Positions 35,586-60,168 of a stretch of DNA of 64,000 bases are shown one piece after another (the stretch's first letter is position 1; each line of letters begins with the position of its first letter). The DNA comes from Streptomyces sp. WMMC940 (GTDB lineage: Bacteria > Actinomycetota > Actinomycetes > Streptomycetales > Streptomycetaceae). The stretch covers positions 6,493,501 to 6,557,500 of the forward strand of contig NZ_JAPZBC010000001.1 in the NCBI RefSeq assembly GCF_027460265.1, in the 5' to 3' direction. The notes under the pieces were generated by a model. The model saw nothing but the letters and a program-made list of their open reading frames with translations, did no database searches and was not told the origin of the DNA. The translations under genes and the position numbers were made by a program.

Positions 35586-35617
35586 GGATCGTTCAACGAT
35601 CCGACAAGAGTCTTGTC
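35586..35617. promoter_or_regulatory. Two adjacent palindromes, candidate FadR-type operators
   Basis: GGATCGTT-C-AACGATCC (35586-35602) is a perfect palindrome, and its core TCGTTCAACGA fits the FadR-subfamily GntR consensus TNGTNNNACNA. GACAAG-AGT-CTTGTC (35603-35617) directly abuts it. They sit between the divergent MFS-pxp operon and the regulator gene, about 90 bp from each start, so the regulator probably controls both. Confidence 0.68.
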
Positions 35618-35708
35618 GTCTTCCGTTCGGGGCGGATCCTGCTCCTACGATGGGTGGCGGACGCCGACGGGGCCGCCGGCGGTGACGGAGAGCGGAATAG
35701 AGGGCGCT

Positions 35709-36425
35709 GTGGGCACGACGGGGTCCGAGCTCGGTGAACTGGCCGGTGACCGCCGGCTCCTGGGGCGCACGAGCACGGCGGAGCGGGTGGCGGACATTCT
35801 GCGCACCCGGATCGCGGAGGGCTTCTTCCCGCCTGGGGCGCGGCTCTCGGAGGACGGCATCGGCAGGGCGCTCGGCGTCTCGCGCAACACCCTGCGCGAG
35901 GCGTTCCGGCTGCTGACGCACGAACGGCTGCTGGTGCACGAGCTCAACCGCGGGGTGTTCGTCCGGGTGCTCACGGTCGAGGACGTCGACGACATCTACC
36001 GCACCCGGCGGCTGATCGAGTGCGCCGTCGTCCGCGGCCTCGGTGAGCCGCCGTTCGCGCTCGACGGGCTGCGCTTCGCGGTGGTGGGCGGTGAGCAGGC
36101 GGCCCGCGAGCAGAACTGGCCGGGCGTGTCCACCGCGAACATCCACTTCCATCGCGAACTGGTCGCGCTCGCCCGCAGCGCCCGCACCGACGAACTGATG
36201 CGCGGCGTCCTCGCCGAACTCCGCCTCGTCTTCCATGTCGTGGACGACCCCCGCGGGCTCCATGAGCCGTATCTCGTGCGAAACCGGGAGATTCTGGAGG
36301 CGCTGAAGGCGGGCAGGCGTGACGACGCCGAGCGGCTTCTCGCCCGCTACCTCGACGACTCCCGGGCCCGGCTCGTCGCGGTCTACGGAGGGATCGTGGC
36401 GGACGGGGACGCGGGGGAGCGCTGA
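35709..36425 (+). CDS. GntR family transcriptional regulator, FadR/FCD subfamily
   Basis: About 238 residues. An N-terminal GntR winged HTH (ERVADILRTRIAEGFFPPG, LGVSRNTLREAFRLLTHERL) is followed by an all-helical FCD ligand domain (VDDIYRTRRLIECAVVRGL, ANIHFHRELVALARS, EPYLVRNREILEAL) with the metal-binding His/Asp positions expected of the subfamily. It probably senses a carboxylic acid such as 5-oxoproline and represses the MFS-pxpABC operon. I prefer the GTG at 35709 with AGAGGG upstream; a GTG at 35682 is also in frame. Confidence 0.88.
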   Translation: MGTTGSELGELAGDRRLLGRTSTAERVADILRTRIAEGFFPPGARLSEDGIGRALGVSRNTLREAFRLLTHERLLVHELNRGVFVRVLTVEDVDDIYRTRRLIECAVVRGLGEPPFALDGLRFAVVGGEQAAREQNWPGVSTANIHFHRELVALARSARTDELMRGVLAELRLVFHVVDDPRGLHEPYLVRNREILEALKAGRRDDAERLLARYLDDSRARLVAVYGGIVADGDAGER

Positions 36426-36466: not shown

Positions 36467-36497
36467 TTCGACCGGTGTCAGTGCGAGGACCTAGTCT
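36467..36497 (+). promoter_or_regulatory. Probable promoter of the SMC-like operon
   Basis: TTCGAC (36467-36472), 19 bases and TAGTCT (36492-36497) fit a SigHrdB-type promoter. The predicted start falls at or next to the GTG at 36505, so the first gene may be translated from a leaderless mRNA. Confidence 0.5.
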
Positions 36498-36504
36498 GTG
36501 CACC

Positions 36505-38031
36505 GTGACTTCGCCCGCCCCGACGGAATCCGTTCCGCCCCAGCTCAGCGCGGGGCCGCGTCCCGCGCAGGGCCCGGCCGCCGACGAAGGGCTCGCGCGG
36601 CGGCTCCGTGCGCTCGCGTGCACCGCCCCGCTGCACGATCTCGACACCCGCAAGGCGAACCTCGCGGGCGAGTACTCGGTCTACGCGATGGCGGAGGTCG
36701 CCCTCGCCGCCATCGACCTCGTCACGCTCAACATGGACTTCGACACCGGAGCCGACCACGAGCAGATAGTGGCCAGGCTCCTGCCGCGGATCGCGGCCCA
36801 GGCCCCGCGGCGCCCCGCCGGCGAGCACGAGCGAGTGGCGCGCTGGGTGCTGGAGAACCTGATCAACGTCGGCAGCGTCGACCGCGGCTTTCGCGCCGTG
36901 TACGGCACTTTCGGCCCGGACGGGGTGTACGTCCGGCGGGACTACGACTTCAAACTCATCGAGGAAGTCCCGGGATACGGCGGCGGTGTCTATCTGCGCA
37001 CCACGGACGAGGCGGTGAACGTCCTCGTCGGCGCCCTCGACACGGACGTCACCAGCGCCCAGATCGCCGCGGAGGTGAAGCTGGAGGTGCTGATCAGCCG
37101 CGGGCGCCTCGCCGACGCCCAGCTGGCCGCGGAGCAGGCCCGCTACCGGACCGTGCAGTACGCCGAGACCCTGCGCAGGACGCTGGAGGCCACCCGGCGC
37201 AATGTGCGCGCCGTCGACTGGCTCAACGCCGTGCCCGACATGATCGCCGAAGCGCTCGACCACGTCGCCGACCGCTACCGCCACGAGAACGCGATCCTCA
37301 CGAACATCCGCAAGGCGCGCGACGAGGCCGAGGACCCCGAGCACAAGCGCCGGGCCGCCGAGCTCGTCGACATCGTCAAGGACTGCATCCGCCGCCACAC
37401 CCAGCTCCAGTCCCGGCTCCTGGAGGCCGGCCCGCTCTTCCGGGCCGAGCAGGACCGCCAGGCGTTCGCCGCGCCGGCGGCGCGCTCCGGCGTCGATCTG
37501 TACGGCCATCTCGTCGCGCCACTGCTGCCCCTGCCCGTCGACCGGGCCATCCGCGTCACCGACGCGTACTTCGCACACGGCACGGGCCTGCGCACTCCCG
37601 CGTCCGTCCGGGTCGCGGACCTCGTCGAACTGCTGCTCAGCCCTCCCGTCGAGCGCGAGCACCTGGGCGCCGAACTGCCCGAGCCCGATCTGATCGCGAC
37701 CCCGGACGACAGCCGCTTCAGCGAGGAGCAGCTGGCGAGCGCCATGGAACTGCTGGACCTGGAGCACGACGCCCCGCGCCGGCTCTCCGGTCTCCTCGCC
37801 GACGCCCGCCGCCGCGATCCGGACCTGCCCTATCTCGTCGCCCTCCTCGCCGTCCACGCGGCCAGCCCGCCGGTCGGCACGGCCTACCGCCAGGGCGAGG
37901 AGCGGCTGCTGTTCGCCGTCGACGACGGCACCGAGCTCGACGACCCCGAGTTCGGCGGCGCGGACCTGATCGTGGGCACGGCCCTGCTGGACGCGGCCGG
38001 CATGGCCGCGGACCGCACGGAGGCCGCGTGA
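36505..38031 (+). CDS. JetA/MukF-like accessory subunit of an SMC-type complex (putative kleisin)
   Basis: 508 residues, almost wholly helical and soluble, with no enzymatic motif. The N-terminal part (about 20-190) contains wHTH-like helices and the segment YDFKLIEEVPGYGGGVYLRT. A long amphipathic, coiled-coil-prone region follows (about 190-330; QIAAEVKLEVLISRGRLADA and related), as in kleisin-type MukF/JetA subunits. A C-terminal domain ends in DDPEFGGADLIVGTALLDA. It is the first of three co-directed genes, followed by a MukE/JetB-like protein and a giant SMC-like ATPase. The kleisin assignment is inferred from architecture and context, not from a residue signature. The start is a GTG just after a TAGTCT box. 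Confidence 0.65.
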   Translation: MTSPAPTESVPPQLSAGPRPAQGPAADEGLARRLRALACTAPLHDLDTRKANLAGEYSVYAMAEVALAAIDLVTLNMDFDTGADHEQIVARLLPRIAAQAPRRPAGEHERVARWVLENLINVGSVDRGFRAVYGTFGPDGVYVRRDYDFKLIEEVPGYGGGVYLRTTDEAVNVLVGALDTDVTSAQIAAEVKLEVLISRGRLADAQLAAEQARYRTVQYAETLRRTLEATRRNVRAVDWLNAVPDMIAEALDHVADRYRHENAILTNIRKARDEAEDPEHKRRAAELVDIVKDCIRRHTQLQSRLLEAGPLFRAEQDRQAFAAPAARSGVDLYGHLVAPLLPLPVDRAIRVTDAYFAHGTGLRTPASVRVADLVELLLSPPVEREHLGAELPEPDLIATPDDSRFSEEQLASAMELLDLEHDAPRRLSGLLADARRRDPDLPYLVALLAVHAASPPVGTAYRQGEERLLFAVDDGTELDDPEFGGADLIVGTALLDAAGMAADRTEAA

Positions 38032-38194
38032 GGCCGCGGCCGGGGCCCGGTCTCCCCGCGTCCCCGTCTCCGCCCGTCCGCCGCGCGCACCGCACGCCCG
38101 CCCGGGAGGCCCGCGCGGCCGACGGCGCGGCGCGCCGCGCAACCGCCCGGCACCGCACACCAGCGCCCCACCACCGCACAGAGGAGCCCCAGCC

Positions 38195-39106
38195 GTGAGC
38201 GACCAGCACGCAGAGCACGCCGGGCCCCGGCGTGAGCCGGACGTGCCGCTCGGGCCGCCGTCCGGGCCGATGTCCGCCTCCACCGGCGTGACCCCCGCCG
38301 ACGCGGCCGACGCGGCGCGGCTCGTCTCCTTCGGGCTGCAGCCCAAACTGCCGCCCGCCCGCGACGCCGAGTACGCCGACCTGCTGCGGCGCTATCGCGA
38401 GGAGCCCGCCTTCGCCCGCCTCGCCGACGCCGTCGCCACCGGGCTCGGCCTGGTCGTCCTCGAGGTGTCGCCCCGCGCGGGAATGGCCGTGACCGCGGCC
38501 GAGGACTCGGTCTTCGCCGTCCGTATGGGCGACTACGCCCGACGGGCCTCCGCCGACTCGGCCGACCGGTTCCTCCACGGCCTCGCCCATCTCGCCGTCG
38601 CCGCGCTGGCGTTCCCCCGCCCCGAGGACCTCGCCGACGACGGCTACATCGGGCGGATCACCGTCAACGGCGTCGACGCGTTCGTGCGGCAGGCCTGCCG
38701 CCGTCTGGAGGAGCGGGCCGACGAACAGGGGGAGAACACCGACCCGGCGTCCGACGCCCCGGGACTCGAAGCCGCGTGGCGCGTCTACGCACGGCGCAGC
38801 GCCACCGGAGCCACCAAGGACGCCCGCCGCCTCGCCGGCTCCACCACCGGCATCATCGCCAAGGCGGTCGCCTTCCTCACCGATTCCGGCTTCCTGCAGC
38901 GCACCGGGGAGGACTCCGGCGGCGCGTACCGGACCACCGCCCGCTACCAGTTGCAGGTCCGCGACATGGCGGGCAGCGCCGCCCTGACCGAGCTGCTGGA
39001 GCTCGGAGTCGTCCCCGTCACCGACGGCTCCGCCACGCTCGTGCCGGCGCCGGACGCTGACGACCTGGAGCTGGCCGCCGACGCCGGCCTTCCCTTCCAC
39101 CCATGA
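38195..39106 (+). CDS. JetB/MukE-like winged-helix subunit of an SMC-type complex
   Basis: 303 residues. A disordered, Pro-rich N-terminus (about 1-45) leads into helical sequence (LLRRYREEPAFARLADAVAT) and then two winged-helix-like parts: GLGLVVLEVSPRAGMAV with FLHGLAHLAVAALAF, and KAVAFLTDSGFLQRTGED followed by the wing YRTTARYQLQVRDM. This layout fits MukE/MksE/JetB, the dimeric wHTH partner of the kleisin. The GTG start has GAGGAG 8 bases upstream. It lies 163 bp after the first gene and 79 bp before the SMC-like gene. Family placement is inferred from layout and context. Confidence 0.65.
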   Translation: MSDQHAEHAGPRREPDVPLGPPSGPMSASTGVTPADAADAARLVSFGLQPKLPPARDAEYADLLRRYREEPAFARLADAVATGLGLVVLEVSPRAGMAVTAAEDSVFAVRMGDYARRASADSADRFLHGLAHLAVAALAFPRPEDLADDGYIGRITVNGVDAFVRQACRRLEERADEQGENTDPASDAPGLEAAWRVYARRSATGATKDARRLAGSTTGIIAKAVAFLTDSGFLQRTGEDSGGAYRTTARYQLQVRDMAGSAALTELLELGVVPVTDGSATLVPAPDADDLELAADAGLPFHP

Positions 39107-39185
39107 CCTCGCGGCGGGCCGCCCGCCGCCGTCCACCTCGCCCAAGCCGCCTCAACACCCCTGAGAACGACGAGAGTCCGCCGCC

Positions 39186-42100
39186 ATGTACGAGCTGTCC
39201 CGGGTACGCCTCTACTCCATCGGGCCCGCCGGTGCGCGCTATGCCGACACCGTGCTGGACCTGCGCGGAGTCGGTGCGCCCGTGCCCGACCCGGCCCCGA
39301 CGCAGGCCGAGTTCTTCGAGGAGGAGCCGGTCGGGCCGCCCCGCCGGCCCGCCCCCGCGGGCGTGCTCTTCCTGGAGAACGGCGGCGGCAAGTCCGTCCT
39401 CCTCAAGCTGATCTTCTCGGTGATGCTGCCCGGTCACCGCAACACCCTCGGCGGAGCCAGCTCCGGTGTGCTGCGCAAGTTCCTGCTCGCCGACGACTGC
39501 GGCCACGTCGCCCTGGAGTGGCAGCACACCCTCACCGGCGAACTGGTCGTCGTCGGCAAGGCCAGTGAATGGCGCGGCCGCCAGGTCTCCAACGACCCCC
39601 GCAAGTTCGCCGAGGCCTGGTACTCCTTCCGGCCCGGACCCGGTCTCAGCCTGGACTCGCTGCCCGTCGCCGAGTCCACCGCCGTCCGCCCGCCCGTCGA
39701 GGGCACCTCGGGCGCGCATGGCCGCCGGCGCACCATGAAGGGCTTCCGCGACGCCATCACCGAGGCGGGCAAGGCGTATCCGCACCTGGAGGTGTACTGG
39801 GAGGAGATCCACGACCGCTGGAACGAGCACCTCGGAGACCTGGGCCTCGATCCCGAACTCTTCCGCTACCAGCGGGAGATGAACGCGGACGAGGGAGAGG
39901 CCGCCGGGCTGTTCGCGGTCAAGAAGGACTCCGACTTCACCGACCTGCTGCTGCGCGCCGTCACCGACACCCGTGACACGGACGGGCTCGCCGACCTCGT
40001 CAGCGGCTTCGGCAGCAAGCTGGGCCGCCGCGCCGAGCTCATCGCCGAACGCGACTTCACCGCGGGCTCCGTCGACCTCCTCGGCCGCATCGTGGAGGCC
40101 GCAGACACCCGGACCAGGGCCCGCGACATCCATCTCGGGGCCGAGCGCCGCACCCGTACTCTCGCGCACCGGCTCTCCGCCAGGGCCGGCGAGGAGCGCG
40201 CCCGCACCGCCGAACTCGCCCAGCAGGTCACCGCCGCCGCGCACACCGTCACCGAGGCGGAGCGGACCCGCAGCCACAGCTCTCTCGTCGCGGCCGAACT
40301 GGCCTACCGGCACGCGTCGCTGGCCCTCACCGCGGCGGAGAAGTCCGCCGCCGCACAGCGCCGAGAGCTGACCGACGCACGCACCCTCCACGCCGCCTGG
40401 CAGGCCGCCGAGGCAGTGCTCCGCCACCGGGCCGCTGCGGACCGCTCCGCACGGGTGGCCGCCGCCATCCGCGAGGCCGAGCGGGACGCCGCGCCCGCGC
40501 TCGCGGCCCGCGCCGAGGCCGCCGCCGACCTCGTGCGCGCGCTCCACTCCGCGGCCGAGGACGGCGAGCGCCTGGCCAACGAGGAGGAGGAGCGCTCCGC
40601 CGGGCTCCAGGAAGCAGGCGAGGCCGCCCACCGCGACGCCACCGCCGCCGCCACTGACGCCCAGCGGGCCCGCAGTGAGGCGGGCCATCTGCGCCAGCGC
40701 CTCGCCGAGGTCGAACAGGAGACCGCGGAGGCCGTCCGCGCCGGCTGGCTCGACGACACCGCGCCCGACGCCGACCCGGCGAGGGCCGCCCTCGCGGCCA
40801 GCGACGCGGAGAAGTCCGCGGTCGCCGCCTGGGACGCGGCCCGCGATGCCGCCCGCACGGCCGCGGAACGCGCCCGTGAGGCGGCGGCAGCCGAGACCCG
40901 GGCCGAACTGACCGCGGCCCGCGCCGCGGACGCCGCCGAGGCGGCCGCCCACGCCCATGAGGCCGAGCGGCTCGCCGCCGCCTCCCTCGCCGGGTCCGAG
41001 CGCCTCGGCGAACTGCTCGGTCTGCCGGCGACAGCCGGGCCGGCGGAGGTCCCCGGACCCCGGCGCGAGCCGTCCGGTCCCGCCGCGACGGATCCGCGAG
41101 CGGTGTTCCCGGCACAGGCGACCGGCTCCGGGGAAGGCCGCCCCGCGCCCACTCCCGCGGGGACCGCGGCCGCCGACCGCCCCGAGGGCGTCCGGCGCGA
41201 AGACCGCACCGAAGTCCCCCTCACCGCCGAGGAGTTCGACCGCCACGCCGACGAACTGCGAGAGCTGCTCGATCAGGGCGTCGCGGCCGCCGAACGCCAG
41301 CTGTTCGAGCTGAGGACCGCGGCCGCGGACGACTCCCGCATCCTCGGGGCGCTCGGCGACGGCGGGCTGCTGCCTCCCGGTCCCGACGTCCTCGCGACCG
41401 TCGAGTTCCTCGGTGAGCACGGCATCCCCGCACTGCCCGGCTGGCGCTACCTCGCCCAGGCCGTCGCCCCCGCCGACCACGCCGCCGTGCTCGCGGCGCG
41501 GCCCGAGCTGGTCGACGGTGTCGTGATCACCGACCCCGTGTCGTACGCCCGCGCCCGCGAGGTGCTGACCGGCGCGGCACTGCTGCCGCGTTCCGCCGTC
41601 GCCGTGGGAACCGCGGCAGCCCTGCTCGCCCCCGTGCCGGGGCCCGCCGCCGGCACGGGCCCGGACGTGTTCCTCGTGCCGCCGAACCCGGCCATGCACG
41701 ACGAGCACGCCGCGGACGAGGAGCGGCAGGCACTCCGGGCCCGCGCCGCGGAGCGGGACGAGGAGATCAGGACCCTCGCGGCGCGGTTGGCGGGCGACCG
41801 CGCCCTCGCCGCCCGTATCGGCTCCTGGCGCGCCGACTGCCCGCCCGGCATGCTCACCGAACTCGCCGGGGCCGCGCGTACCGCCCGGGAGTCGGCCGAT
41901 GCCGCCGAGAAGGTGCTCGCCGAGGCCCGCACCGCCCGGGCCGAGGCCGAGGAGGCCGCCGCCGACACCGCCCGGGTGCGCGACGAACGGCAGGACACCG
42001 CCCAGCGGGCCCGCCGTGCCGCGGACGCGCTCGCCGGACTCGCCTTCCGCCTCCGCGAGCGCGCCGGGTGGCAGGCGAAGCTGCGTGAACTCGCCGACGA

Positions 42101-44102
42101 GGCGGCCGAGTCCGACGCCCGCGCCGGCTCCTGCCTCGAGCGGGCGAGAGTCGCCGACCAGGACCGCCGGGCGGCCCAGCGCGCGGCGGACGACGCCCGG
42201 CGCACCGCACGCGCCCTCCGCGCCGAGCGCGCGGAGATCGCGGGCGCGCCCGAGCAGTTGCCCGACGCGGACGGGACTCACGACACCCCCCGCCCTTCGC
42301 TGCCCGCCCTGCGGGAGGCGTACCGCGCCGCGTCCCAGCTGTACGAGAAGGTCGGCGTCGGGGCAGACCTCCGTGCCGAACAGGCCCACGCCGAGAGTGA
42401 CGAGAGCGCCGGGCTCGCCGCACTCGACCGGCTCACCAACAAGGTCCGCACGCGCGCCGCCCAGTTGCTGGAGGGCACCGACGGGGCCGACGGACCCTCC
42501 CGCCAGGCCGCCGCGGCCCGCGCCGAGTCGCATGTGCAGATGCTGGAGACCCGCGCCTCCGAGGCCAGCGAGAAACTCGGCCGGCTGCGCGGGGAGGCCG
42601 AACGCCTCGCGCCCGTGGACGGTGACGCACACATCGCGCTTCCCGAGGAGATGGAGCCCTCGGACGCCCAGCACGCCCAGGCACTGCTGCGGACGGCCAC
42701 CGGCGAGCTGGCCGCCCGTACGGAGGCGCTGGACACCGCCCGGGCGAGGCACGCCGAACTGCTGCGCGCGCACCGCACCGCCGAGGACTCGGCGAGCGGT
42801 TTCGACGAGACGGCGGCCCTCCTGCGCGATCTGCTCAGGGACCACACCGACGAGGACCAGGAACGTCCCCAGCCGTACGCGGGCGGTCTCGAGGAGGCCA
42901 GGCAGTCGGCGGCCGAGGCCCGCCGCTCCCTGCGCGGCTGCGCGGCCGATCTGTCCTCCGCCGAGTCGGCTGTGCGCGAGGCGAGCGATGTGCTCGTGCG
43001 CCATGCCAACTCCACCCGCTACGAGGCGGTGCGCACACCGGCCCGTCTGCAGATCCGCGAGCTGCCCGCGTCCTCCCTGCCGGAGCACTCGGCGCGCTGG
43101 GCCGAGGCGTTCGCACCACGGCTGCGCGTACTCACCGACGAGTTGGCGCAGTTGGAGCGCAACCGCGACTCCATCGTGGACCGGCTCCGCGGACTGGTGG
43201 AGTCGGCCCTGACCACGCTCCGCTCGGCCCAGCGGCTCTCCCGGCTGCCCGAGGGACTGGGTGAGTGGTCGGGCCAGGAGTTCCTGCGCATCCGCTTCGA
43301 GGAGCCCGACCAGGCGACCCTCACCGAGCGGCTCGGCGAGGTCATCGACGAGGCCACCCGCGCCGCGGTGAGGAAGAACTCCGATCTGCGGCGCGACGGG
43401 ATGTCCCTGCTGCTCCGCGGCGTCCGGGCGGCTCTCGAACCGAAGGGCGTCGCCGTCGAGATCCTCAAGCCGGACGCGGTGCTGCGCGCCGAGCGGGTAC
43501 CGGTCGGGCAGATGGGCGACGTCTTCTCCGGCGGCCAGTTGCTCACCGCGGCGATCGCGCTGTACTGCACCATGGCCGCGCTCCGCAGCAACGACCGGGG
43601 GCGGGACAGGCACCGGCACGCGGGCACGCTGTTCCTGGACAACCCCATCGGCCGGGCCAACGCCACCTATCTGCTGGAGCTGCAGCGTGCCGTGTCGAAT
43701 GCCCTCGGCGTCCAGCTGCTCTACACCACGGGCCTGTTCGACACCACCGCCCTCGCGGAGTTCCCGCTGGTCATCCGGCTGCGCAACGACGCGGACCTAC
43801 GAGCGGGCCTCAAGTACATCAGCGTCGAGGAGCATCTGCGCCCCGGCCTGCCGCAGCAGCGCACCGAGGGCGAGACCGTGCACGGGGAGATCACCGCGAC
43901 CCGGATGTTCAAGAGGGCCGCGGACGAGCCGTCGCCCGCGCCGGTCGAGAGCCCGAGGGGGATCTCGACCGAGGCGGGGGCCGCGCCCCCGACGGGTGCC
44001 GTGCCGCGGTCAACGAGGCCGGCAGCCGCTTCCGAGGACGCCGGCACCGACTCCCGGCCGGGGTCCGGCTCGCCAGAACCCCCCGTCCGTCGCGAGGAGT
44101 AG
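39186..44102 (+). CDS. SMC/MukB/JetC-like coiled-coil ATPase
   Basis: 1638 residues. The N-terminal head half has Walker A FLENGGGKSVLLKL at about 60-73. A very long Ala/Arg/Glu-rich coiled coil (about 290-690) reaches a globular, hinge-like domain (about 700-840; LPGWRYLAQAV, VDGVVITDPVSYA). The returning coil (about 850-1390) leads to the C-terminal head with the ABC signature VFSGGQLLTAAIAL (near 1445) and Walker B TLFLDNPIGRAN (near 1480), where Asn follows the Asp in place of the usual catalytic Glu. A disordered Pro/Ser/Glu tail closes the protein. It should be a DNA-entrapping SMC-type ATPase working with the two preceding products. Larger than typical JetC or MksB, so it may form its own subfamily. 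Confidence 0.8.
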   Translation: MYELSRVRLYSIGPAGARYADTVLDLRGVGAPVPDPAPTQAEFFEEEPVGPPRRPAPAGVLFLENGGGKSVLLKLIFSVMLPGHRNTLGGASSGVLRKFLLADDCGHVALEWQHTLTGELVVVGKASEWRGRQVSNDPRKFAEAWYSFRPGPGLSLDSLPVAESTAVRPPVEGTSGAHGRRRTMKGFRDAITEAGKAYPHLEVYWEEIHDRWNEHLGDLGLDPELFRYQREMNADEGEAAGLFAVKKDSDFTDLLLRAVTDTRDTDGLADLVSGFGSKLGRRAELIAERDFTAGSVDLLGRIVEAADTRTRARDIHLGAERRTRTLAHRLSARAGEERARTAELAQQVTAAAHTVTEAERTRSHSSLVAAELAYRHASLALTAAEKSAAAQRRELTDARTLHAAWQAAEAVLRHRAAADRSARVAAAIREAERDAAPALAARAEAAADLVRALHSAAEDGERLANEEEERSAGLQEAGEAAHRDATAAATDAQRARSEAGHLRQRLAEVEQETAEAVRAGWLDDTAPDADPARAALAASDAEKSAVAAWDAARDAARTAAERAREAAAAETRAELTAARAADAAEAAAHAHEAERLAAASLAGSERLGELLGLPATAGPAEVPGPRREPSGPAATDPRAVFPAQATGSGEGRPAPTPAGTAAADRPEGVRREDRTEVPLTAEEFDRHADELRELLDQGVAAAERQLFELRTAAADDSRILGALGDGGLLPPGPDVLATVEFLGEHGIPALPGWRYLAQAVAPADHAAVLAARPELVDGVVITDPVSYARAREVLTGAALLPRSAVAVGTAAALLAPVPGPAAGTGPDVFLVPPNPAMHDEHAADEERQALRARAAERDEEIRTLAARLAGDRALAARIGSWRADCPPGMLTELAGAARTARESADAAEKVLAEARTARAEAEEAAADTARVRDERQDTAQRARRAADALAGLAFRLRERAGWQAKLRELADEAAESDARAGSCLERARVADQDRRAAQRAADDARRTARALRAERAEIAGAPEQLPDADGTHDTPRPSLPALREAYRAASQLYEKVGVGADLRAEQAHAESDESAGLAALDRLTNKVRTRAAQLLEGTDGADGPSRQAAAARAESHVQMLETRASEASEKLGRLRGEAERLAPVDGDAHIALPEEMEPSDAQHAQALLRTATGELAARTEALDTARARHAELLRAHRTAEDSASGFDETAALLRDLLRDHTDEDQERPQPYAGGLEEARQSAAEARRSLRGCAADLSSAESAVREASDVLVRHANSTRYEAVRTPARLQIRELPASSLPEHSARWAEAFAPRLRVLTDELAQLERNRDSIVDRLRGLVESALTTLRSAQRLSRLPEGLGEWSGQEFLRIRFEEPDQATLTERLGEVIDEATRAAVRKNSDLRRDGMSLLLRGVRAALEPKGVAVEILKPDAVLRAERVPVGQMGDVFSGGQLLTAAIALYCTMAALRSNDRGRDRHRHAGTLFLDNPIGRANATYLLELQRAVSNALGVQLLYTTGLFDTTALAEFPLVIRLRNDADLRAGLKYISVEEHLRPGLPQQRTEGETVHGEITATRMFKRAADEPSPAPVESPRGISTEAGAAPPTGAVPRSTRPAAASEDAGTDSRPGSGSPEPPVRREE

Positions 44103-44206: not shown

Positions 44207-44620
44207 TCAGGCCTGGGACAGCCGGCCCGCACCCGTTCGTCGTATCCGCGCGGACTCACGCGCCTCCGTGCGGGCGATCCGCCGTGCCTTCCTCCGCTCA
44301 CGCCGCAGTTGCCGCGCTGTGCTGCTCGGCATCGACACCACGCCGTGCCGCTGGTTCCACACCTGGCGCGTCACCCACACGTCCAGCACCGCCCAGGTCG
44401 CACCGACCGTGCTCGCCACACTGCTCAGGACCAGGGGGAAGGCCAGCCATGATCCCGTCACCGAGAAGAAGAAGGCCATCAACGCCTGAGTGATCGTCAC
44501 TGCCGTCACGATCACGGCCCGCACGGCCGCCGTGCGCACCGGGTCGGGCAGCCGCCGTCGTCCCACCGGTTCCTCGACCCAGAGCCGCCGCGGTGCTCCC
44601 ACCTCGTCCGCCGTCGCCAT
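44207..44620 (-). CDS. Small integral membrane protein, function unknown
   Basis: 137 residues. Two hydrophobic helices lie at about 34-55 (AVIVTAVTITQALMAFFFSV) and 58-82 (LAFPLVLSSVASTVGATWAV), flanked by a polar N-terminus and a strongly basic C-terminal tail (RRERRKARRIARTEARESAR) that would face the cytoplasm. I do not recognise a characterised family. It is convergent with the SMC-like operon and divergent from the conservon, so context says little. Confidence 0.75.
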   Translation of the reverse strand: MATADEVGAPRRLWVEEPVGRRRLPDPVRTAAVRAVIVTAVTITQALMAFFFSVTGSWLAFPLVLSSVASTVGATWAVLDVWVTRQVWNQRHGVVSMPSSTARQLRRERRKARRIARTEARESARIRRTGAGRLSQA

Positions 44621-45093: not shown

Positions 45094-47964
45094 ATGCGCT
45101 TTCGCGGGAAGTCGATCCGCCGGAAGATCGTGGCGTTGCTGCTCGTGCCGCTCGTCTCCCTGACCGCGCTGTGGGGGTTCGCGACCGCACTGACCGGCCG
45201 TGAGGCAAAGCAACTGCTGGACGCCGGGTACATCTTCGAGAAGGTCGGCCTGCCCCTCGAGGAAACGGTCCGCGTCATCCAGAAGGAACGCCGCCAGACC
45301 CTCGTCCACCTCGCCGACCCCCGCGCCGCCGACTCCCTGATCGCCCTGCGCGGACAGCGGTCGCAGACCGACAGGGCCGTGGCCGAAATCCGCGCCAGCG
45401 CACAGGACTCCGGGGTCAGGAGCTCCCTCAGCCCGGACGCGTCCCGGCGCCTCGACCGGCTCGTCGACGCACTCGACGGCCTCGGTTCCCTGCGGCGGAA
45501 CGTCGAGCAGAGCGCCATCACCCGTGCCCAGGCCATGGAGTTCTACAACCGCCTCGTGGATCCCTGCTACGGCTTCCTCATGTCCCTCAACGGCCTGGAG
45601 AGCGTCGAACTGGAGAGGCAGGGCCGCGCTCTCGTCGGTATCGTGCGCGCACGCGAACTGCTCTCCCGCGAGGACGCGCTCGTGACCTCGTCGCTGGTCG
45701 CGGGCAAGATCACGCCCGGGGAGATCCGCGCCGTCACCGATCTCGCCGCCAACCGCAAGCTGCTGTACGAGATCAACCTCGAGGTCCTGCCGGCCTCCGA
45801 GCGCGAGATCGTCGAGCGGTACTGGGGCAGTCCCGACACCCAGCCCCTGCGCGAGACCGAGGAGAAACTGATCGCCGCGGGCCCCACCGGCAAGCCGCGC
45901 GTGGTGGACGCCGAGCGGTGGCAGCAGCTCGCCGGGCCCGTCCTGGACGACCTGGCCCGCCAGTCCAGCGAGGCCGGCGACCGCTACCGGGACCGCGTGG
46001 AGCCGGCCGCGTACGGCGTGCTCGTCAAGGCCGGCATCGCCGGTGTCCTCGGCTTCCTCGCCCTCCTGGTGTCCCTCGTCGTCTCCGTGCGCATCGGCCG
46101 CGACCTCGCGCGTGCGCTGTCCCGGCTGCGCAAGGAGGCCCACGAGGTGTCCGGCGTCCGCCTCCCCAGCGTGATGCGCCGGCTCGCCGCGGGCGAGAAC
46201 GTCGACGTGGAGACCGAGGCGCCCCACCTCGAGTACGACAAGGACGAGATCGGCCAGGTCGGCCAGGCGCTCAACACCCTCCAGCGGGCCGCCGTCGAGG
46301 CCGCCGTCAAGCAGGCCGGCATGCGCCGCGGCGTATCCGAGGTCTTCGTGAACCTCGCCCGCCGCAACCAGGTCCTCCTCCACCGCCAGCTCACCCTCCT
46401 CGACACGATGGAGCGCCGCACCGAGGACGCGGAGGAACTGGCGGACCTGTTCCGGCTGGACCACCTCACCACCCGTATGCGTCGGCACGCGGAGGGCCTG
46501 GTGATCCTCTCCGGCGCGGCCCCCTCCCGGCAGTGGCGCAAGCCGATCCAGCTCATGGACGTCGTACGGGCGGCCGTCGCCGAGGTGGAGGACTACGAGC
46601 GGATCGAGGTCCGGAGGCTGGCCCGCGTCGGCGTGGCGGGACCCGCGGTCTCCGACCTCACCCACCTCATCGCCGAACTGCTGGAGAACGCCACGGTGTT
46701 CTCGCCCCCGCACACCGGTGTGCAGGTGCACGGCGAGCGCGTCGCCAACGGCTTCACCCTGGAGATCCACGACCGGGGCCTCGGGATGGCCCCCGAGGCA
46801 CTGCTCGACGCCAACCTCCGGCTGGCGGAGACGCCCGAGTTCGAGCTCTCCGACACCGACAGGCTCGGCCTGTTCGTCGTCAGCCGGCTCGCCCAGCGGC
46901 AGAACGTGCGCGTCTCCCTGCAGCAGTCGCCGTACGGAGGGACCACCGCGGTCGTCTTCGTACCGGCGGCGCTGCTCACCGACGCCCCCGACACCGAGGG
47001 CACCGGCTTCCGCCTCGACCGCAAGAACTCCCCGGGCGGACGCGACGGCTCCGCCCGCCGCTCCGAGGCCGGCCGTCTCACGGCCCTCTCCCAGGTTCCC
47101 GCGGGGCTCACGGTCCCCGCCGTCCTCGACGGCCCCGTCGAACTCGAGGCGCCCGTAGGAAGTATGGGGTTCGAGGACCGCCAGGCCCTGGGCGCCCGGA
47201 CGGAGCGCATCGACACGGCCGAGCCGATCAACGCCGTGCCCGACTCCGCGGCGGACATCGAGGACACCGAGAGCGAGCGCGGCGGACTGTTCCGGGCCCG
47301 GGACTTCCTCCGCACCCCTGACGAGCAGCACCAGCAGGCCTCCGACCAGACGCCGGAGCGACCGGGGAACGGCCCGCGCCGGGCGTCCCCCAGCCCCGTT
47401 CCCCTGCCTCGCCGCAAGCCTCCGACCCTGGTCGCCGACAACGGGCGCCGGATCGCCGAGCGGGGCCGGCCACACCCGTTGCCCGGACCCGGCAGGGACG
47501 AACCGGAGGCCTCCGGCGCGCGCCGGGACTCCGACTCCGCGAGCCCGGCGCCGGGCCGTCCGCCCTCCGCTCCGGTGCCGCTGCGGAGCAGGCCGCCTCG
47601 TGGAACCGGCGGCCCCGAGCGTTCCGGCGGTGCCGCGCGGGCGGACGGCCCGAGGAGCGGCGCAGGCGCCGGCACGGGCGCCGCCCGCCCGGTGCGCGGC
47701 TCCTCGGGACCGACGGCCGGCGGGCTGCCCCGCCGGGTGCGCCAGGCCAGCCTCGCGCCGCAGTTGCGCGAGACCTCCGGCGCCCGCGCCAGGCCCACCG
47801 CGGCGGAGGACGCCCAGGACTTCGAACGCGACGCGGAACAAGTACGCGACCGCATGGCCTCGCTGCAACGCGGCTGGCAGCGCGGACGTCGCCAGAACGC
47901 CGAGGATGCCACGGGCCCCGGCGAGACAGCACCAGGAACGACACCGGAGGGGGACGGTCGATGA
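45094..47964 (+). CDS. cvnA: Conservon sensor-kinase-like protein CvnA with nitrate-sensing-type domain
   Basis: 956 residues. A first transmembrane helix (about 10-30) and a second (about 305-335) enclose an extracellular NIT-type four-helix sensor domain. A HAMP linker (about 335-395), a DHp-like helical pair (HRQLTLLDTMERRTEDAEEL, LDHLTTRMRRHAEGL) and a HATPase_c domain (about 515-640; IAELLENATVFSPP, DRGLGMAP, GLFVVSRLA) follow. The last 300 residues are a disordered Pro/Arg-rich tail. In Streptomyces conservons CvnA is the membrane partner of CvnB-D in a G-protein-like switch. The signal is unknown. GGGGGAGG lies just before the ATG. Confidence 0.93.
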   Translation: MRFRGKSIRRKIVALLLVPLVSLTALWGFATALTGREAKQLLDAGYIFEKVGLPLEETVRVIQKERRQTLVHLADPRAADSLIALRGQRSQTDRAVAEIRASAQDSGVRSSLSPDASRRLDRLVDALDGLGSLRRNVEQSAITRAQAMEFYNRLVDPCYGFLMSLNGLESVELERQGRALVGIVRARELLSREDALVTSSLVAGKITPGEIRAVTDLAANRKLLYEINLEVLPASEREIVERYWGSPDTQPLRETEEKLIAAGPTGKPRVVDAERWQQLAGPVLDDLARQSSEAGDRYRDRVEPAAYGVLVKAGIAGVLGFLALLVSLVVSVRIGRDLARALSRLRKEAHEVSGVRLPSVMRRLAAGENVDVETEAPHLEYDKDEIGQVGQALNTLQRAAVEAAVKQAGMRRGVSEVFVNLARRNQVLLHRQLTLLDTMERRTEDAEELADLFRLDHLTTRMRRHAEGLVILSGAAPSRQWRKPIQLMDVVRAAVAEVEDYERIEVRRLARVGVAGPAVSDLTHLIAELLENATVFSPPHTGVQVHGERVANGFTLEIHDRGLGMAPEALLDANLRLAETPEFELSDTDRLGLFVVSRLAQRQNVRVSLQQSPYGGTTAVVFVPAALLTDAPDTEGTGFRLDRKNSPGGRDGSARRSEAGRLTALSQVPAGLTVPAVLDGPVELEAPVGSMGFEDRQALGARTERIDTAEPINAVPDSAADIEDTESERGGLFRARDFLRTPDEQHQQASDQTPERPGNGPRRASPSPVPLPRRKPPTLVADNGRRIAERGRPHPLPGPGRDEPEASGARRDSDSASPAPGRPPSAPVPLRSRPPRGTGGPERSGGAARADGPRSGAGAGTGAARPVRGSSGPTAGGLPRRVRQASLAPQLRETSGARARPTAAEDAQDFERDAEQVRDRMASLQRGWQRGRRQNAEDATGPGETAPGTTPEGDGR

Positions 47965-48395
47965 CCGCACCGAACGCCGCAGCAACCGACACGACCAAGA
48001 ACGGCGAGCTCAACTGGCTCCTCGACGAACTGGTCGAGCGCGTCGGTTCCATTCGCAAGGCCCTCGTCCTCTCCGGCGACGGTCTCGCCACCGGCGCCTC
48101 GAAGGACCTCACCCGTGAGGACGGAGAGCATCTCGCGGCTGTGGCCTCCGGGTTCCACAGCCTCGCCAAGGGCGTGGGCCGCCACTTCGACGCCGGCCGG
48201 GTGCGCCAGACCGTCGTCGAGCTCGAGGACGCCTTCCTCTTCGTCACCGCCGCCGGGGACGGCAGTTGTCTCGCCGTCCTGTCCGACGCCGACTCCGACG
48301 TCGGTCTCGTCGCCTACGAGATGACGCTGATGGTCAAGCGCGTCGGAGCCCACCTCGCGACGGCACCCCGGACCGGGCTCTCCGCCGGAGGGTGA
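47961..48395 (+). CDS. cvnB: Conservon roadblock/LC7 protein CvnB
   Basis: 144 residues, a roadblock/LC7 (MglB-like) domain: LNWLLDELVERVGSIRKALV at the N-terminus, LSGDGLATGASKDL, FLFVTAAGDGSCLAVL and YEMTLMVKRVGAHL. Such dimers regulate the cognate small GTPase CvnD and bind the kinase-like CvnA. The ATG overlaps the cvnA stop by 4 bp, so translation is coupled. Confidence 0.95.
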   Translation: MTAPNAAATDTTKNGELNWLLDELVERVGSIRKALVLSGDGLATGASKDLTREDGEHLAAVASGFHSLAKGVGRHFDAGRVRQTVVELEDAFLFVTAAGDGSCLAVLSDADSDVGLVAYEMTLMVKRVGAHLATAPRTGLSAGG

Positions 48396-48406
48396 GTGGA
48401 CCGGCC

Positions 48407-48811
48407 ATGACTGACGGCAGACAGCAGGTCCGGCACGCCCCCCGGTGGTACGACGACGACGCGGGTCCGGTGGTCCGTCCGTACGCGATGACCCGTGGCC
48501 GGACCACGAGTACCACGGAGCACCGGCTCGACCTGATCGCGCTCGTCGTGCCCGAACCGGCCGCCCAGGATCCCGGCCGGGACCAGGTGCTCTCCCCGGA
48601 GCACGTGGAGATCGTCGAACGCTGCTGCACCACCCCGCAGTCGATCGCCGAGCTCGCCGCGGGCCTGGACCTCCCCGTCGGGGTGATCCGGGTCCTCGTG
48701 GGCGATCTCGTCGACGACGCCCTGGTCCACGTGACCCGTCCCGTACCGCCGGCCGAGCTGCCGGACGTCAGCATTCTCCGCGAGGTGATCAATGGTCTTC
48801 GGGCGCTCTAG
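48407..48811 (+). CDS. cvnC: Conservon DUF742 protein CvnC
   Basis: 134 residues, the DUF742 family: an N-terminal PVVRPYAMTRGRT motif, LDLIALV, then a winged-helix-like part (SPEHVEIVERCCTTPQSIAE, LPVGVIRVLVGDL) and the closing PDVSILREVINGLRAL. It is the third conservon component, of unknown biochemical role. The ATG is 12 bp after cvnB; a GTG at 48392 overlapping the cvnB stop (GTGA) with GGAGG before it is an equally plausible start, adding five residues. The 3' end overlaps cvnD by 20 bp. Confidence 0.92.
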   Translation: MTDGRQQVRHAPRWYDDDAGPVVRPYAMTRGRTTSTTEHRLDLIALVVPEPAAQDPGRDQVLSPEHVEIVERCCTTPQSIAELAAGLDLPVGVIRVLVGDLVDDALVHVTRPVPPAELPDVSILREVINGLRAL

Positions 48812-49397
48812 CCGACGGGAGACACCGGTGGAGCCGGTGACACTGAAGATTCTTGTGGCCGGTGGCTTCGGGGTCGGCAAGACCACCCTCGTGGGGGCGG
48901 TCAGCGAGATCAAGCCGCTCCGTACCGAGGAGACCCTGAGCGAGGCCGGCCGGCCCGTGGACGACCTCGACGGGGTGGAGTCCAAGAGCACGACGACCGT
49001 GGCGATGGACTTCGGCCGGATCACCCTCCGGGAGGACCTCGTCCTCTACCTCTTCGGCACCCCCGGTCAGGACCGGTTCTGGTTCCTCTGGGACGAGCTG
49101 GCCCAGGGCGCGCTCGGCGCGGTCGTGCTCGCCGACACCCGCCGCCTGGAGGACTCCTTCGCGGCGATCGACTACTTCGAGCGGCGCGGCATCCCGTTCA
49201 CCGTGGGGGTCAACCGCTTCGAGGGAGCCGACGAGTACCCGGAGGAGACCGTGCGGGCCGCCCTCGACCTCGACCCCGAGGTACCGCTGATGACGTGCGA
49301 CGCCCGTGAGCGGGAGTCGGTGAAGTCGGTGCTGGTGGCGGTCGTGGAGCACGCACTGGTGCGGTCCACCCGTGAGCGGGAGCCCGCGGCGACCTGA
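48792..49397 (+). CDS. cvnD: Conservon Ras-like GTPase CvnD
   Basis: 201 residues of the ATP/GTP-binding conservon GTPase family. The P-loop G1 is GGFGVGKTT (about residues 25-33), G3 is TPGQDRFWF, and the G4 position reads NRFEG in place of NKxD, usual in this bacterial family. The C-terminal helix (VKSVLVAVVEHAL) lacks a lipidation signal. It should cycle between GTP and GDP forms under control of CvnB and signal downstream of CvnA. The start overlaps cvnC. Confidence 0.95.
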   Translation: MVFGRSSRRETPVEPVTLKILVAGGFGVGKTTLVGAVSEIKPLRTEETLSEAGRPVDDLDGVESKSTTTVAMDFGRITLREDLVLYLFGTPGQDRFWFLWDELAQGALGAVVLADTRRLEDSFAAIDYFERRGIPFTVGVNRFEGADEYPEETVRAALDLDPEVPLMTCDARERESVKSVLVAVVEHALVRSTREREPAAT

Positions 49398-60093: not shown

Positions 60094-60135
60094 ACCGGGG
60101 ACGCCCCACGCCCCCGAGGCCACGAGGACGCGTTG

Positions 60136-60168
60136 TCAGTGCTCACGACTACGGTGAGTGAGCACTGA
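60136..60168. promoter_or_regulatory. Perfect 11-bp inverted repeat upstream of a hypothetical gene
   Basis: TCAGTGCTCAC (60136-60146) and GTGAGCACTGA (60158-60168) are exact complements spaced 11 bp apart, centre to centre about two helical turns. It lies 43 bp after the acetoacetate-CoA ligase stop and 32 bp before the next start, so it may be an operator or a weak terminator. Confidence 0.45.

Follow-up and report, generated by a model that had tools for sequence, protein, structure and literature searches.

A Wadjet type III JetABC locus without JetD in Streptomyces, probably kept as a core chromosomal complex

The jetABC locus and its proteins

The DNA analysed here, called the window, is a 64,000-nt stretch (6.49-6.56 Mb) of the 7.67-Mb genome of Streptomyces sp. 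WMMC940, which is present in 3 contigs. An earlier note, made from the letters of this stretch, had described three co-directed genes for proteins of 508, 303 and 1638 aa, and we found all three on the + strand. Their third-position GC is high, as in the remaining genes of the window. The upstream neighbour, which the note had taken for a FadR-type regulator gene, was given as GntR/FCD by Pfam. The features are:

35613..36425, + strand: GntR/FCD (FadR-type) regulator, upstream neighbour, outside the complex (Pfam)
36476..36497, + strand: RecA-NDp-like promoter, TGTCAGTG-N8-TAGTCT (motif pattern)
36505..38031, + strand: jetA, kleisin subunit, 508 aa (open reading frame; PADLOC JetA3)
38195..39106, + strand: jetB, KITE (tandem winged-helix) subunit, 303 aa (open reading frame; predicted fold)
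39077..39100, + strand: C-terminal tail of JetB, ADAGLPFH, in core copies only (alignment)
39186..44102, + strand: jetC, SMC-type ATPase, 1638 aa (PADLOC JetC3 PDLC00588, 1396 bits)
39375..39395, + strand: Walker A of JetC, ENGGGKS (identical in 77/77 core loci with a JetC frame)
41022..41219, + strand: Pro/Ala-rich insertion of JetC, of variable length among core copies (alignment)
43524..43538, + strand: ABC signature of JetC, FSGGQ (motif pattern)
43626..43646, + strand: Walker B of JetC, TLFLDNP (motif pattern)
44207..44620, - strand: small protein, downstream neighbour, outside the complex (no Pfam match)

To name the three proteins we used profile searches, as the earlier note had proposed, and fold predictions. 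PADLOC identified the first protein as Wadjet type III JetA3 (PDLC00567, 618 bits) and the third as Wadjet type III JetC3, with the best stretch of the match covering JetC residues 682-1581. By profile, the two proteins are classed as a JetA-type kleisin and a JetC-type SMC ATPase of Wadjet type III. The middle protein had no match to PADLOC JetB3 at E<=1; the JetB proteins of two complete JetD-bearing operons (L096 and L105) likewise gave none, and two others score weakly. The window JetB shares 35-51% identity with the JetB of seven JetD-bearing loci. Its predicted model has MukE and Wadjet JetB as the nearest chains in Foldseek, and by predicted fold it is assigned as a JetB/MukE-type KITE. 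The nearest chains to the predicted JetA model were those of MukF, with weak E-values. Together, the two profiles and the two models bear out the kleisin-KITE-SMC trio in MukFEB-like order that had been proposed from the sequence. Pfam and NCBIfam returned matches at chance level only for the three proteins, with no Muk/Mks profile among them. Against PDB chains, no significant match was obtained with the JetC sequence or with a JetA profile, the latter having a single match at E 0.72.

A search of genome contigs confirmed 542 relatives, and the best 80 are called core loci; because they are the best 80 of 542, conservation figures drawn from them lean high. JetA of S. wuyuanensis (L002) is 98% identical to the window JetA. 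JetA, JetB and JetC were matched in all 64 core loci with full 10-kb flanks (median identity 91.2, 85.5 and 82.2%), and the core locus is largely syntenic: the same loci matched the GntR/FCD regulator (57/64), the small opposite-strand protein (49/64) and the downstream sensor kinase (46/64). The regulator does not adjoin jetA in L124-L126, which come from other genera. Beyond the small protein, Pfam identified in the window a NIT/HATPase sensor and then a roadblock protein. Together with a nucleotide-binding protein these form a cluster downstream of jetC (45094-49397), which we take to be conservon-like.

The Walker A, the FSGGQ signature and the Walker B strand that had been read in the 1638-aa protein were all located, and they are conserved in the core loci. 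A JetC frame is present in 77 of the 80 fetched core loci; 70 of these have identical signature and Walker B sequences, and the pattern matched nothing in the remaining 7. SMC ATPases normally carry a catalytic Glu where the Walker B of JetC has Asn. The DN variant was found in 9 of 12 JetD-bearing relatives, plus L105, and there was no pattern match in L106 and L117. DN instead of DE is thus shared by core and JetD-bearing copies alike (window, L096-L099, L101, L102, L105, L118-L120). In this branch the catalytic Glu of type III JetC seems to have been replaced by Asn, and ATP turnover of JetC is not assured because the usual Walker B Glu is Asn.

Two further elements distinguish the core copies. 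The motif GLPF near the JetB C-terminus was found in 81/81 core proteins versus 0/15 non-core proteins (16 non-core frames, with the truncated L117 left out), and GLPF is present in 118 of the best 120 database relatives. This conserved tail may dock a host partner. The columns of the JetC insertion hold 67 residues in the window, 15-71 in core copies and 6-11 in the JetD-bearing L096, L098, L099, L102 and L119; the frames of L118 and L124 are partial in this comparison.

Distribution, descent and the missing JetD

Among 150 Streptomyces genomes, 147 had a JetA3 match (partial in G081 and G121), and the three genomes without a match have completeness values of 82%, 78% and 98%. Another draw, made over the order and overlapping with the Streptomyces draw, gave JetA3 matches in 230/230 members of the family and in 3/15 others. 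Of 296 genomes drawn over the phylum, 13 matched, namely the own genome, 8 others in its genus and 4 outside it. Since it is near-universal in the family and rare elsewhere, the core copy comes close to a family signature. Such near-universality is unusual for a defence system. The own genome also encodes an ordinary SMC (908 bits). Passages of PMC10482375 report that 42% of actinobacterial genomes carry Wadjet and that, in Streptomyces, it is enriched towards the ends of the chromosome; these figures possibly include the core copy.

The three genes are under purifying selection. Between the window and its relatives (14 of the 80 core loci, 13 for JetC), dN/dS was 0.096 for JetA, 0.177 for JetB and 0.174 for JetC. 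Four neighbouring genes, each compared in 7-11 relatives, had values of 0.218, 0.392, 0.221 and 0.222.

The absence of a jetD beside the trio, already remarked in the earlier note, was confirmed on a wider scale, as neither the window nor any of the 80 core loci (64 with full 10-kb flanks) showed a JetD3-like frame. JetD3 is likewise absent from the own genome, where JetD_C stayed below the cut-off. JetD3 above 150 bits was found in 11/150 Streptomyces genomes, and these 11, with no others, also have a second JetA3 above 150 bits; the second JetA3 matches of G128 and G141 are fragments (56 and 32 bits) and were not counted. In these second type III copies JetD3 lies behind jetC in 11/11, and the operons look like complete jetABCD. 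Some relatives look decayed: the JetC frame is shortened in L104/L127, and L116 has JetA alone. L103 and L115 break off within JetC and are uninformative on JetD, and in L100 JetC is divided between two overlapping frames.

A survey of Streptomyces genomes for linked or unlinked jetD, as the note had suggested, gave DUF2399 matches in 71/150 and JetD_C matches in 18/150 genomes. The union of DUF2399, JetD_C and JetD3 matches (E <= 0.01 for DUF2399 and JetD_C, E <= 0.001 for JetD3) covers 74/150 genomes, including the three without JetA3. Accordingly, 76 of the 147 JetA3 carriers have no match to any of the three JetD types searched. All three JetA3-less genomes (G050, G073 and G079) have a DUF2399 (JetD2-type) match, which may be chance.

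The own genome has four DUF2399 (JetD2-type) matches. One of them (L111, ~1.73 Mb) is a JetD2 beside JetA2 and JetC2 according to PADLOC, that is, a type II Wadjet operon. The others (L112, L113 and L114) are frames of 201, 183 and 636 aa, the 636-aa frame lying ~20 kb into the large contig. These three are candidates for remnants or unlinked nucleases.

The JetA tree has 37 rows (20 from core copies, 17 from others), is rooted at the midpoint and has long branches that the program flagged. In it the core copies, among them those from three further genera of the family, form one group with support of 100/99. This group joins the JetD-bearing L098 and L102 (95/90), and further JetD-bearing copies fall outside. 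A tree of A+B+C (22 rows, with partial JetC of L106, L117 and L118) also recovered the core group (100/100), adjoining JetD-bearing L098/L102. Since the core copies form a single, well-supported cluster adjoining JetD-bearing systems, one loss of JetD in an ancestor of the Streptomyces family is the simplest and probable account, provided that the root falls neither on nor within the core branch. The earlier note had suggested a distinct actinobacterial condensin-like system. Its condensin-like character holds; a system apart it is not, given that its kleisin and SMC are of Wadjet type III and that it groups with JetD-bearing operons.

The promoter upstream of jetA

Upstream of jetA, the window matches the full RecA-NDp pattern TGTCRGTG-N8-TANNNT, leaving 7 nt between the -10 hexamer and the GTG start, which is a leaderless arrangement. 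We compared 79 upstream regions (the window and 78 of the 80 core loci, L013 and L021 being too near the contig start). The looser pattern TGTCRG-N10-TANNNT was found in 78/79, all but L044, and in 76 its distance to the start is 7 nt; in L073 the position used is no start codon. Over the 80 core loci, 3.18 Mb when both strands are counted, the loose pattern has 80 matches, nearly all of them jetA promoters. The motif takes the form TGTCRGTG in 16 of the 79 regions and TGTCRGAC in 44. Of three other genera, two also have the full motif before the jetA of their core copies.

In S. coelicolor, as described in parts of PMC5087735, a RecA-NDp promoter precedes recA and a UV-inducible gene, and the consensus closely resembles the mycobacterial PafBC motif according to a passage of PMC8223512. 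For S. venezuelae, an excerpt of PMC9380542 states that, by an initial search, the PafBC motif of M. smegmatis seemed not to be conserved there, which speaks against damage control of jetA. In the own genome, the full pattern occurs 41 times versus 0 for the reversed pattern. We inspected 30 of the 41 sites, and chose ten genes for naming by profile. A start lies 6-11 nt behind 16 of the 30 sites, and the other 14 have none in this range; sites were found 7-9 nt before recA, pcrA, radA and dnaX. A second full motif of the window (60134-60155, + strand) lies directly before a 352-aa open reading frame starting at 60158.

Regarding the TGTCRGAC form, the situation was less clear. Two genomes bearing it gave 17 matches versus 2 for the reverse. 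Sites of this form precede pup by 27 nt and, in L169 as read by eye, by 40 nt. The frame behind the site before recA begins 49 nt away, with RecA itself later in the frame. TGTCRGAC may also be a RecA-NDp-type promoter, an assignment weaker than that of the full form.

Taken as a motif, the conserved jetA promoter points to DNA damage control of the PafBC type. The full motif was also found before jetA in the JetD-bearing L096, L097, L100 and L118, and not in nine others. The promoter alone is therefore no mark of a repair role, and damage control may predate the loss of JetD. Some anti-plasmid systems of Streptomyces may thus be DNA-damage-inducible. In the type II Wadjet operon of the own genome, a full RecA-NDp motif lies 11 nt before the JetA2 frame (site in L134).

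Proposed role and alternatives

We consider it probable, though well short of certain, that the locus encodes a Wadjet type III JetABC which lost JetD and was kept as a core chromosomal machine, probably a damage-inducible second condensin. By homology with MukBEF and Wadjet, JetA (kleisin) and JetB (KITE) would complete a ring at the JetC heads, and DNA loop extrusion would be driven by ATP turnover. Cleavage would not be the outcome when JetD is missing, so the motor would compact or bridge the cell's own chromosome; since JetD is gone and the motor is retained by selection, the chromosome is the likely substrate. The leaderless PafBC-type promoter would provide larger amounts of JetABC after DNA damage, and the complex would work side by side with the ordinary SMC. 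Several observations weigh against this reading: the TGTCRGAC form in 44 of the 79 upstream regions, the three genomes without JetA3 (one of them 98% complete), the weak E-values of the JetA model, the DUF2399 matches in the own genome and in about half of the genus, and the Asn in Walker B. The fuller version, an overlooked, family-wide second condensin that was domesticated once through loss of its nuclease, came or stayed under a PafBC-type promoter, gained a new docking tail on JetB for a host partner, and serves damaged or linear chromosomes in a way SMC does not, has in our estimate slightly less than an even chance.

Restriction could also proceed without a nuclease, if looping and compaction by JetABC silence foreign circular DNA or cause its mis-segregation, somewhat as proposed for Smc5/6 and viral DNA. 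The ancestry would fit, as passages of PMC10586767 describe JetABC as the sensor and JetD as the cutter of the anti-plasmid Wadjet system, and the damage-type motifs before four JetD-bearing copies are also in its favour. However, the near-universal presence, the single core group in the tree and the chromosomal neighbours shared by most core loci speak against it, and we regard it as unlikely.

Another form of anti-plasmid defence would borrow a nuclease in trans, as the earlier note had envisaged; it could be JetD from an unlinked locus or a different nuclease of the Toprim or OLD kind. Candidate sources do exist: the own genome has its type II operon with JetD2 and three further DUF2399 matches, and DUF2399 and JetD_C are found in many of the 150 genomes (71 and 18). 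However, the 76 JetA3 carriers lacking every JetD type searched make a nuclease encoded elsewhere unlikely as a general answer, JetD3 above 150 bits is confined to the 11 genomes with a full second copy, and the locus is nearly universal, which is not usual for defence. We consider this explanation quite unlikely.

The note had also suggested a part in sporulation, and a mainly developmental condensin would agree with the near confinement of the locus to a sporulating family. Streptomyces chromosomes are rearranged and compacted during sporulation, according to parts of PMC8410768. However, nothing that we found points to such a role: WhiG and BldD site patterns were matched in 0/79 core upstream regions, a weak test, and the conserved promoter is of another type, pointing to DNA damage instead. 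A sporulation condensin is in our view improbable. A decaying relic of a defence operon, as the missing subunit and the decayed-looking relatives (L104/L127 and L116) might suggest, is hardly credible, as JetA3 is kept in 147/150 genomes, the ATPase motifs are conserved and dN/dS (0.1-0.18) is below that of the four neighbouring genes.

The preferred reading, a JetD-less chromosomal JetABC, can be compared with several known systems. With Wadjet type III the locus shares its best profiles (JetA3 and JetC3) and an identical gene order, and its proteins can be aligned with Streptomyces JetABCD copies; it differs in lacking JetD, in being near-universal and mostly syntenic instead of accessory, and in the JetB tail and the JetC insertion. 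The kleisin-KITE-SMC gene order without a nuclease is common to MukBEF, MksBEF and the core locus. The JetA model is nearest to MukF and the JetB model to MukE and JetB chains; what sets the locus apart from MukBEF is that JetC and the JetA profile have no significant sequence match to PDB chains. MksBEF is closer to Wadjet type I, and MksBEFG belongs to a Wadjet type other than III. Like MksBEF, JetABC is a nuclease-free SMC/kleisin/KITE complex beside an ordinary SMC, which parallels the origin proposed for MksBEF in passages of PMC10586767; unlike it, the core JetABC comes from the type III branch, is actinobacterial, has a RecA-NDp-like promoter and has no Muk/Mks match in Pfam or NCBIfam. 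Mycobacterial and corynebacterial MksB/MksBEFG is likewise a second SMC-type complex in an actinobacterium, and a 2024 title cited in PMC13121528 calls MksB a mycobacterial condensin. However, MksBEFG includes the MksG nuclease (title of PMC10123090 and, for C. glutamicum, passages of PMC10586767), which the core JetABC lacks.

Among the matches listed from open-licence PubMed Central, no title concerned a JetD-less JetABC in Streptomyces or the control of Wadjet by PafBC; PMC9122601, the one listed paper to contain both Wadjet and PafBC, mentions them in unrelated places. The kinds of component are already known, and new here are the conserved RecA-NDp-like promoter before jetA, the core-only JetB tail and the JetC insertion. 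In two papers on Streptomyces chromosome folding (PMC8410768 and PMC13121528), SMC is treated as the condensin and the word Wadjet is absent; Hi-C and spore-compaction work may therefore miss a player.

If the preferred reading is true, an immune SMC complex would have become a housekeeping machine for a second time, independently of the first, and would be fixed throughout a family of antibiotic producers whose chromosomes are linear. Matches to JetA and JetC alone should then not be counted as Wadjet defence. The question of what a Wadjet motor does minus its cutter becomes testable in laboratory strains, and JetD-armed versions in the same genus allow direct comparison. In G090 the accessory type III Wadjet occurs twice (L120, the one of the two extra copies that was read, and G090:C1:9222617-9223438), ~16 kb from each chromosome end, so that the paired copies sit as if in terminal inverted repeats.
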